This document shows, in pieces, positions 38,818 to 57,022 of a stretch of DNA of 57,194 bases. Position 1 is the first letter of the stretch; every line of letters starts with the position of its first letter. Where the stretch lies: IMG/VR virus record IMGVR_UViG_3300046453_000072, positions 1 to 57,194 of that record. One strand, 5' to 3'. The DNA comes from a virus. Below the pieces are notes generated by a model. The model was not told the origin of the DNA. It made no database searches and saw nothing but the letters and a program-made list of their open reading frames with translations. The translations under genes were made by a program, and so were the position numbers.

Positions 38818-39681
38818 ATGAGCAAAAAGAAAGAACTTTCCCCAGAGCTAAAAGCTGAATGCGACGCCGCGAAGGCGCTTTTCGTAGCGAAAAAGAACGC
38901 CCTCGGACTCACTCAGGCAAGTCTCGCAGAAGCCGCTGATATCTCTGCTGCCGCTGTCGCGATGTACCTGAACGGCACAAATCCGTTGAACGCAAAATTT
39001 GCGGTTGTATTGTCACGTCTGCTTAAAGTACCTGTAGAAAAATTCAGTAGGCGGCTCGCGAACGAGATAAGCGGGCTAACAAGCGCAACGGAGCGCGCGG
39101 AGGCCCCCGTGCAGAGCGCATCCGCCGCCGATATGGTTCGCCAAATGCTTGCGAAGCAGGGAAAAGGTCTGTCAGAAGAAGCGCGCAGCCGTCTTCTTGC
39201 TGCCGCCGAAGAGCCAACCAACGTAATTAACATCGACTCCCGTCCAGGCCAGGTCGGGGATGAGGTGTGGATTGCTCACTACGACGTCCGCGCCGCTATG
39301 GGCGGCGGGCAGGTTCCGCACGACTACCCCGAGATGCTTCAGGACGTGAGGGTGAGCCCCAAGCATCTGCGAGAAATGGGCGTCGAATTCGTCGAGCACT
39401 TCCATCTCAAAATGGTCACGGGCTGGGGGCAATCAATGGCGCCCACTATCAAGCACCGCGACCCTCTTCTGGTGGACGTCAGCATTCGAGAGTTCGTTGG
39501 GGATGGGATCTATCTGTTTTCTTGGGGCGGCCATCTGTACATCAAGCGCCTGCAGCGAATGGGTAACGATCGATTCAAGATGATTTCCGATAACACCAAT
39601 CACCCTCCTGAGCCGATCAGGGCGGATGACACTTATATCCAGGCACGAGTGCTGCTGGTGTGGAACGCTCACCTGGTGTAG
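38818..39681 (+). CDS. cI: CI-type repressor (HTH + S24 peptidase)
   Basis: A 287-residue repressor. The N-terminal HTH is at about 27-72 (ALGLTQASLAEAADISAAAV) and the C-terminal S24 domain has the nucleophile Ser206 in GQSMAPTIKHRDPLLVD and Lys243 in YIKRLQR. Instead of a plain Ala-Gly cleavage site it has AAMGGGQ at 159-165, a variation seen in related repressors. There is no good ribosome binding site close to the ATG, and transcripts could be nearly leaderless as for lambda cI. It would bind the OR and OL operators. Confidence 0.93.
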   Translation: MSKKKELSPELKAECDAAKALFVAKKNALGLTQASLAEAADISAAAVAMYLNGTNPLNAKFAVVLSRLLKVPVEKFSRRLANEISGLTSATERAEAPVQSASAADMVRQMLAKQGKGLSEEARSRLLAAAEEPTNVINIDSRPGQVGDEVWIAHYDVRAAMGGGQVPHDYPEMLQDVRVSPKHLREMGVEFVEHFHLKMVTGWGQSMAPTIKHRDPLLVDVSIREFVGDGIYLFSWGGHLYIKRLQRMGNDRFKMISDNTNHPPEPIRADDTYIQARVLLVWNAHLV

Positions 39682-42350: not shown

Positions 42351-43025
42351 ATGACTGTAGACATCAGCAATTTCATCATTGCAACTCCTCTTCCAATTTC
42401 CGACACGAACCCTATTTCCCTCGACCTGATCGGTTGGCGAGCGCTGATCGAATGCCCCAGCGTCATCTCAATGCTTCCCGACGGATCGCTGCAGATGACA
42501 GCACCCACCCTTGGCGCCTCCAGTAAAAGCGTCCATCGAACTCGTTGTGAATGGAAAGAGCCTGGCTATTGGCCGTTTGCCAGTGCCGCAGACCATTGGT
42601 GCCGTCAAGAAATGCGACTGACGAAGGTCAATTCGTTGCAGAAGGTCGTGATCGGCCAAATTCATGTGCAAGGTTCTGAACGCCCACCGGTAAAGGTGTT
42701 TTGGAACAAAGGCAAAATCACCATGGGATTCCGGTCGAGCTACCTGCAAGACGATCCCGTTAATTCGACGGTGCTGGAGTACGTGCCGCTTGGCGCACTC
42801 TTCAAGATCAACATTCACGCCAACTCCACAGGTGCCGTTTCTGTATCGGCGAGTTGTAACGGCGTCAAATCTACTTCCGCGATCATGCGCCTCGACAGCA
42901 CCTGGGACACAAAAACTCTCGCCTTCCACGGCGGCGTGTACAACCAGATCGATTACTCCGACACAACCGATCCCGAGGACGCTTCGATCTGCGTAATCAG
43001 CGATCTGTCCATCACTCACGGGTAA
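42351..43025 (+). CDS. PL7 alginate-lyase-like protein
   Basis: A 224-residue protein with the pattern of polysaccharide lyase family 7: RTRCEW at 63-68 in place of RTELRE, QIH at 103-105, and FHGGVYNQ at 192-199 in place of FKAGVYNQ. The probable catalytic His105 and Tyr197 and the first Arg are kept; the second half of the RTELRE motif is changed. PL7 enzymes cut alginate, a Pseudomonas capsule polymer. There is no signal peptide and it lies in the early operon, not among tail genes. It may act after lysis or bind rather than cleave. Confidence 0.82.
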   Translation: MTVDISNFIIATPLPISDTNPISLDLIGWRALIECPSVISMLPDGSLQMTAPTLGASSKSVHRTRCEWKEPGYWPFASAADHWCRQEMRLTKVNSLQKVVIGQIHVQGSERPPVKVFWNKGKITMGFRSSYLQDDPVNSTVLEYVPLGALFKINIHANSTGAVSVSASCNGVKSTSAIMRLDSTWDTKTLAFHGGVYNQIDYSDTTDPEDASICVISDLSITHG

Positions 43026-43582
43026 GACCAACCAGCGCCACGTCAGCCTGACGATAACTGCCCGAGCACCTGGTACTCCCCAGCACCAGGCCGCATCGGA
43101 GTGTGATCTGAGGCTAAGTCTCGGGCGGCGGATGCGCCAACAGGCAGTCTTTAGGGCTGCCCCATCCGCTTAATGCCGGTTGAGCCCCGGCCAGATCACA
43201 CCCCGATGCGGACGATTCTGCACCGCGCAACGCGGCCCCCTGCATTACCCATTCAATAGGTGGCCACTGCCTGCCCAGTGAGCGAGCAATAGGAGTCACT
43301 GCCATGAAACGCTAACCCGCCGTTGCTGAGCAACAGTATCCGCAGGCACTACAGCCCTGCGCGCTTGGACCGACGAGAGAATATCGGTTCCGGAGTGCGC
43401 GCCTTGTCAGCGCCCCGCAGCGGGCATAGCCCACAGGATCTGCTGGTGACATCAGCGCCGGACAAGTAACCGGCAACCCTTCCGACCGACACCATCCGCA
43501 TGCACTCCCCTCCACGCCCACCGGCAATCAGCGGAATGGATGAGTGCAGCCGAGTTTTGTTGGATCAACCAGAGGATCAGTC
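43026..43582 (+). ncRNA. hairpin-rich non-coding region, structured RNA candidate
   Basis: No convincing gene lies in this 557-base gap, but inverted repeats are dense. CGTCAG-C-CTGACG is at 43041-43053; CCTGGT/ACCAGG is at 43069-43090. Then 43091-43110 pairs with 43192-43211 over 20 bp with one mismatch. Inside that, GCGGATG/CATCCGC (43128-43134/43163-43169) with GGCAG/CTGCC (43143-43147/43157-43161) and GCCGG/CCGGC (43175-43179/43187-43191) form two inner arms. CCGCG-CAA-CGCGG follows at 43223-43235. A three-way-junction RNA of about 121 bases is the simplest reading. Confidence 0.6.
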
Positions 43583-56932: not shown

Positions 56933-56992
56933 TCATTGAAAAATATGGTCGGGACGGAGTGATTCGAACACTCGACCCCTAGCACCCCATGC
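56933..56992. repeat. attR: attR core (60-bp direct repeat)
   Basis: Identical to 3954-4013. It covers the 3' two-thirds of the intact tRNA-Pro plus 13 bases beyond the CCA. It marks the right end of the prophage. Confidence 0.93.
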
Positions 56993-57022
56993 TAGTGCGC
57001 TACCGGACTGCGCTACGCCCCG
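56946..57022 (-). tRNA. proL: tRNA-Pro, anticodon GGG
   Basis: Read on the minus strand from 57022 it is 77 bases: acceptor CGGGGCG pairs with CGTCCCG (one G-T pair), D-arm with GCGCAG, anticodon arm CTAGC-ATGGGGT-GCTAG, T-arm with GTTCGAATC, discriminator A and encoded CCA. The anticodon at loop positions 34-36 is GGG. The integrated phage restores its 3' part, so it is intact. Confidence 0.94.

Follow-up and report, generated by a model that had tools for sequence, protein, structure and literature searches.

A gene-free stretch of 557 nt in the early-left operon of a Pseudomonas phage almost certainly encodes a conserved RNA element, in which a constant platform and a long stem enclose an insert that phages exchange as a block. 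The conservation of this element, its covariation, the exchange of its inserts, the enrichment of minimal ORFs downstream of it and a further conserved module, module C, are established. By analogy with known systems, we favour on balance an explanation in which RNase III would cut the stem of this early-operon platform and release the insert as an exchangeable cargo RNA.

A structured non-coding region in the early-left operon

The stretch analysed, here called the window, is the full 57,194 nt of IMG/VR record IMGVR_UViG_3300046453_000072, from a Pseudomonas phage. A cI-like repressor gene, two further genes, the gap, and then small genes together with genes for Erf, a YqaJ-type exonuclease and SSB follow one another on the same strand (Table 1). 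We identified no lambda N-like gene in the window, and Pfam gave no family for the 99-aa protein encoded directly 3' of the gap. The only tRNA that ARAGORN called in the window is a tRNA-Pro (GGG), at 56946-57022 on the minus strand near the record end.

Table 1 Features of the RNA region and its operon (window coordinates)
Feature	Position	Strand	Remarks
cI-like repressor (HTH + Peptidase S24)	38818..39681	+	Sets the operon context
Upstream accessory gene, alginate-lyase-like	42351..43025	+	Pfam Alginate_lyase2, PF08787, E 8.5e-39
Non-coding RNA region, 557 nt	43026..43582	+	Early-left (PL-type) operon; folding, homologous modules
Conserved 5' platform (model R2)	43025..43101	+	Begins at the upstream gene's stop codon
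Platform hairpin I, CGTCAGCCTGACG	43041..43053	+	Covarying pair
Platform hairpin II, CCTGGTACTCCCCAGCACCAGG	43069..43090	+	Sequence and length differ between phages
5' arm of 20-bp stem	43091..43110	+	Outer GCATCGG constant in the family, inner part insert-dependent
Insert, cluster C0, 81 nt	43111..43191	+	38 distinct homologues, consensus fold
3' arm of 20-bp stem	43192..43211	+	Inverted repeat, covariation
3' domain: ACGA spacer, small hairpin ACCGCGCAACGCGG, CCTGCAT	43212..43245	+	blastn matches
Module B, ATAGGTGGCCACTGCCTGCCCAGTGAGCGAGCAATAGGAG	43256..43295	+	3' end is Shine-Dalgarno AGGAG, at 43291
Mini-ORF ATG AAA CGC TAA	43304..43315	+	2 sense codons after ATG, with SD
Module C: stem GCACTC/GAGTGC around GCCCACCGGCAATCAGCGG	43497..43552	+	Directly 5' of the next gene
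First gene 3' of the RNA region, 99 aa	43583..43882	+	PHROG 2201 (unknown function), E 9e-16

No convincing ORF or gene was found in the gap, as an earlier note on this DNA had stated, and at least four conserved, protein-free RNA modules lie inside it. The gap folds better than its shuffles (z -2.9, 0 of 100 equally good), and its core at 43050-43245 reaches -91.4 kcal/mol (z -4.5, 0 of 200 equally good). These shuffles, together with homologues whose stem scores also lie above those of shuffled sequences, rule out a chance fold and bear out the claim that structure here exceeds expectation. At the gathering score, Rfam 15 assigned no family to the gap or to 18 homologous loci, and a relaxed E-value brought no credible family either: we took as chance both a mraW match in the gap (18.4 bits, where the gathering score is 50; E 0.4) and a sub-threshold MIR1883 match. 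The Rfam covariance model of DicF had no match in the window.

A new phage RNA in the early operon, as the note had proposed, is what homologues point to as well. Hundreds of loci carry the element; it lies downstream of a cI-like gene, on the same strand as the genes of a PL-type operon, shows covariation and has no Rfam family. What that fixed-structure interpretation lacked was the exchange of the insert.

Constant platform and covarying stem

Compared by blastn with phage records, pieces of the gap occurred in about 25-30 records, nearly all of them from Pseudomonas phages, and in several of these the similarity starts where an unrelated upstream gene ends, at its stop codon. A degenerate pattern derived from the 5' domain (CGNCANCCTGNCGNNAACTGCCCGA) matched at least 120 viral contig stretches, and 97 stretches in species-representative genomes, all titled Pseudomonas except two titled Pantoea. 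The accessory genes upstream are interchangeable, and their stop codon is often the start of the platform. Its covariance model, R2, recovered the window copy as the single strong match in the window (90.3 bits, E 1.3e-20) and returned nothing at E<0.6 in HK022, phi80, Qin or the lambda PL-N region. At the two facing positions of hairpin I, we counted T-A 90 times, A-T 80 times, G-C 8 times and other combinations 6 times among 184 distinct elements. Because both positions had been left free in the search pattern, selection did not bias this covariation.

Directly 3' of the platform hairpins, the two 20-nt arms of the stem stand 81 nt apart and are 95% complementary, with a single A-C mismatch, exactly where the earlier note had drawn a 20-bp stem with one mismatch. 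The window stem scored 46 in the stem search, close to the median of homologous loci (47, n=185), whereas dinucleotide shuffles had a median of 24 and a maximum of 39. The stem base, GCATCGG/CCGATGC, is nearly constant; the inner half varies with the insert yet remains paired. Distal stem cells were paired in 91.4% of cases, compared with 58.7% (maximum 62.3%) when partners were swapped between elements, figures for stems that were picked by a search for pairing, a bias that the shuffle control reduces and does not remove. Among 141 non-redundant elements there are 71 different distal arms, and most positions show all four Watson-Crick pairs.

Across the family the 20-bp stem is a genuine and strongly covarying structure, and the covariation check suggested for it came out positive. 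Within C0, the insert family of the window, the stem is almost invariant and the few double changes fall only in small hairpins; C0 is therefore uninformative on this point, and the covariation of the stem rests on the whole family. Of 78 insert clusters, 92% have a stem of 18-25 bp, a suitable length for an RNase III substrate.

Exchange of the enclosed insert

Parsing 209 elements with a long stem yielded 87 insert clusters (blastn) in the same slot. Inserts are mostly 30-115 nt long (median 81, quartiles about 50 and 98, maximum 179 among well-formed elements), and a few measure only 4-12 nt. Of 29 locus pairs in which both flanks are similar, 17 differ in their inserts. Over the 287 nt upstream, which belong to the 3' end of the alginate-lyase gene, the window shares 94% identity with two loci, L105 and L074, that carry inserts C4 and C3; this 3' end is ~84-94% identical between the window and L105, L142, L174, L074, L087 and L092, all with other inserts. 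Nearly every related phage has its own folded RNA in this slot; the enclosed part is exchanged as a block across phages while the platform stays.

Conserved families also exist among the inserts. One of them, C0, comprises 38 distinct sequences with a mean column identity of 92%, and in the window it forms hairpins at about 43110-43122, at 43143-43161 inside 43128-43169, and at 43175-43191. Hairpins inside the stem had been predicted, and they are there, as several small ones and not as the two nested arms first described; the proposed three-way junction is a fair approximation of the window copy and misses both the replaceable insert cassette and three further modules. We consider it probable that the insert is an exchanged functional RNA. 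Many insert clusters are without a visible common fold, so one common cargo function does not follow.

A coupling of the insert to the gene before it, as in a toxin-antitoxin or type III pair, was ruled out: upstream protein families and insert clusters were not associated (32 shared pairs against 34 by permutation), in a protein clustering that is loose because shared leader sequence chained families together. We likewise rejected a retron or group II intron, no reverse transcriptase being seen in the loci examined.

Exchange between constant flanks could, in principle, be a property of the DNA, with the inverted repeat serving as a recombination site or as a cruciform that shuffles cassettes and the RNA structure arising as a by-product. 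We give this very little credence. Hairpin I, module C and the P2 stem of the kissing-loop RNAs described below covary too, the elements keep a single strand orientation relative to transcription, no recombinase gene was noticed beside those examined, and homologous recombination in the flanks suffices.

Some inserts resemble parts of tRNAs. A canonical T-arm occurs in six insert clusters, compared with 0.28 expected by shuffling, mostly directly beside the 3' arm of the stem, and the C9 insert carries CCTGA-CTCGTAA-TCAGG, which resembles a tRNA anticodon arm. Such inserts, and with them the cloverleaf-like kissing-loop family that sits with tRNA genes, could be tRNA mimics that an arms race has diversified and that act as decoys for defence systems which cleave tRNAs or for host enzymes which bind them. 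As an explanation of the whole this is improbable, as most of the 87 clusters are without a T-arm, ARAGORN at default settings called a tRNA in one insert only, and Rfam had no tRNA match for the inserts of the window, L150 and L060. Immunity or defence-related cargo, tRNA-like decoys included, is a guess with partial support as the reason for insert exchange.

The window insert as a plain tRNA was ruled out, neither ARAGORN nor Rfam placing a tRNA in the gap. A tmRNA-like reading of C15, prompted by GGTTCGACGG near the 5' arm, was without Rfam support.

A kissing-loop RNA family

Searches for two hairpin forms, GCGC-AGGCTGAT-GCGC and GCCGG-AGATCAGC-CCGGC, found eleven insert clusters with hairpins of this type. 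One of them is C0 of the window, whose loops are not complementary; in most of the others the two loops are, and their complementarity is kept across sequence changes (GCTGAT:ATCAGC, GCGAT:ATCGC and GCCGA:TCGGC). Scanned alone, the second hairpin occurred in at least 120 viral contigs, most of them without the Pseudomonas platform. Although these contigs had been selected by that hairpin alone, covariation is seen in the first hairpin and in the closing stem. Invariant loops, covarying stems (P2 among them) and a cloverleaf-like fold mark the family, whose covariance model we call R1. Its core motif was found in 177 phage records, mainly from Klebsiella, Escherichia and Pseudomonas and also from Salmonella, Aeromonas and Erwinia, a count obtained with a 31-nt query at a permissive E-value, so that some records are chance matches.

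Copies of the family lie near tRNA genes more often than expected: 14 of 137 have one within 300 nt, always on the same strand, compared with 3.2 expected. In Edwardsiella phage GF-2, the motif stands directly before the putative N gene, in the N leader. Rfam matches in 14 kissing-loop loci never overlap the motif, and we regard the family as a strong candidate for a new Rfam entry.

The window insert matches this family weakly, though at exactly the expected place: the R1 model scored 16.8 bits at 43101-43200 (E 0.032 over 103 kb), and 14.9 bits at the next best site in the window. In place of the R1 loops GGCTGA and GATCAGC, the window insert has CTAAG and TTGAGCC; of these loops only GGCT/AGCC could pair, and without covariation.

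Kissing-loop modules turned up in several other settings. One is in the HK620 late leader between qut and tQ (L472 1500-2100), and another in phiEt88 beside tRNA-Phe, in or near the late-operon leader (L474 about 2000-2120). In Klebsiella phage UPM 2146 (Taipeivirus; L435 1900-5220), ~3.3 kb without annotated genes beside a tRNA cluster look like a row of RNA cassettes, each closed by a stem and one belonging to the kissing-loop type.

Conserved elements downstream of the stem

The sequence that follows the stem is conserved in pieces. In 82 of 178 loci, CCTGCA[TG] is found no more than 75 nt from the stem, and module B, which is 92-96% identical in Aurca01, Medea1 and MT836137, is represented by its motif GGTGGCCACTG in 23 of the 178. 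Downstream of the stem, a strong Shine-Dalgarno sequence followed by ATG, zero to two codons and a stop was present in 68 of 175 loci, compared with 7 in shuffles and 4 in a reverse-strand control, whereas ORFs of 3-6 codons were rarer than in shuffles (1 against 9.6). ATG-TAA, ATG-AAA-TAG and ATG-TGA are the commonest forms. Such minimal ORFs are known from the bar minigenes of phage lambda, in which a strong SD precedes a two-codon ORF in the PL operon. The window's ATG AAA CGC TAA with its AGGAG, likewise in a PL operon, has this same arrangement of SD and two codons, and the family differs from lambda bar in having zero to two codons of varied identity downstream of an RNA platform.

Module C has the conserved core GCGCCCAYCGGCANCCAGCGG, from which the window copy departs by one change. 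Close matches to this core occur in at least 120 viral contigs, and 58 of 144 copies lie within 1.5 kb downstream of a platform. By inspection, its outer (closing) stem changes while staying paired, and in many loci inspected the module stands directly before the next gene, the first early gene. Start-stop mini-ORFs and module C are separate conserved elements, each directly testable.

This arrangement brings to mind transcription control in cis, either by RNA-driven antitermination like that of HK022 put or by an attenuator made of the mini-ORF and a downstream terminator. The element precedes early genes. Under strict scanning criteria, 49 of 178 loci have an intrinsic terminator downstream, often with the mini-ORF upstream of it, and, reading the sequence, CCCGA upstream and CCTGCAT downstream could each pair alternatively with the stem base, so that competing pairings may form on both sides. 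Such control nonetheless has little probability in our view. The gap of the window contains no terminator-like site, the competing pairs show no covariation because their positions are invariant, and cis control gives the swapped inserts no role. Structured RNA near the start of early operons is a likeness to the put RNAs of HK022; against it stands the lack of any platform-model match in HK022 or other lambdoid regions. We know of no swapped cargo in HK022 put.

Likeness to known leaders and a proposed mechanism

The closest precedent is the lambda N leader, in which a stem of 16-17 bp surrounds ~90 nt. As in lambda, phi80 and GF-2, the window stem lies near the start of a PL-type operon, and it falls within the lambda-type pattern of a PL-type leader whose ~16-20 bp stem encloses ~80-130 nt. 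What the N-leader stem encloses, moreover, differs between phages (lambda, phi80, GF-2 and L278), as in the Pseudomonas family. Unlike the N leader, the window element is followed by a PHROG 2201 gene without a Pfam family and not by an identified N-like gene, has a Pseudomonas-specific 5' platform before the stem with one or two accessory genes upstream, and carries the mini-ORF and module C after it. N mRNA is listed among the messages positively regulated by RNase III (PMC9032294, citing Kameyama et al. 1991).

A second precedent is the PL-like dicBF operon of the Qin prophage in E. coli K-12, which has a 567-nt gap between ydfC and dicB. RNase III makes the 5' end of the 190-nt DicF RNA and RNase E the 53-nt form (PMC10448788). 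If the two forms share their 3' end, as our arithmetic assumes, the RNase III cut would fall near L440 position 2746, within the 3' arm (about 2735-2760) of a predicted 22-bp stem. Qin shares with the window a non-coding gap of ~570 nt after small genes and, on this placement, would have a stem of ~22 bp at the RNase III site, from which processing releases an sRNA. DicF itself, an sRNA that acts antisense, has an Rfam family to itself; it shows no sequence match to the window element, and the platform is absent from Qin. Upstream of dicB (L440 2954-3082), we also noted a stem of ~20 bp (AATTTTGTGATG.../...CATCACAAAATT) enclosing sequence with a weak match to the kissing-loop model, 17.1 bits.

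Phage tRNA genes and clusters offer a looser parallel. Some inserts carry T-arms or D-arms and the kissing-loop family adjoins phage tRNA genes, but the 'acceptor' stem is extended to 20 bp and the window insert is not called as a functional tRNA.

From the lambda N leader and Qin dicBF, a stem cut by RNase III that frees a folded insert is, by analogy, the most likely way of working, and RNase III probably does process the stem. The same precedents favour an RNase III substrate over the RNase-resistant element that the earlier note had offered among its possibilities. The RNA platform would be transcribed from PL as part of the early-left operon, and its constant 5' domain and stem base would display a helix of ~20 bp. 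Cutting of this helix by RNase III would set the insert free as a cargo RNA, small and stably folded, and would split the message of the accessory gene upstream from that of the early genes downstream, with the mini-ORF and module C presumably belonging to the start of the downstream transcript. The freed insert may then accumulate and act in trans. It would be the functional, exchangeable part, swapped by recombination in the constant flanks as accessory genes are.

A rival account keeps the cut and drops the cargo. The stem would be an RNase III site or insulator that sets the stability and translation of the downstream early genes, and the insert a functionless structured spacer subject to neutral drift and exchange. 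The lambda N leader is a precedent for such leader control (PMC9032294), the stem is conserved though the inserts differ completely, and a few inserts are as short as 4-12 nt. We judge it unlikely, though to be taken seriously: neutral spacers would not be retained as conserved families such as C0, and in the kissing-loop family the loops are invariant and the stems covary in many phage genera and at other operon positions, beside tRNA genes.

More widely, tailed phages may possess a general RNA-cargo system, a possibility that we raise tentatively. Dedicated slots, each consisting of a constant platform and a ~20-bp stem, would lie in early-left leaders, in late leaders and in tRNA clusters. 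Unrelated folded RNAs (tRNA-like, kissing-loop and others) would be exchanged in them and, once released by host RNase III, would act on the host or its defences. The data suggest that phages carry and exchange small RNA tools as they do accessory genes. The mode of working would be a known one, that of RNase III-processed PL leaders and DicF. A literature search of open-licence papers found no description of the RNA family. As far as we could test, three things are undescribed: a constant platform that carries exchangeable cargo, kissing-loop RNAs shared by different phages at different operon positions, and the start-stop ORFs. Such a system could explain the layout of the lambda N leader and of the dicF region, and would yield candidate phage RNAs for screening against defence systems and host targets.

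Protein searches in known slots are the way in which the accessory genes of temperate phages, for defence, exclusion or toxins, are found. The neighbouring slot holds RNA that is equally variable and that is unannotated in the annotated records we looked at. For an early operon, the alginate lyase directly before the RNA region of the window is an odd accessory gene. In upstream ORFs of homologous loci, GKTTEGKTM ends a translated leader common to different accessory proteins, which hints that conservation may extend to the region before the accessory gene slot.
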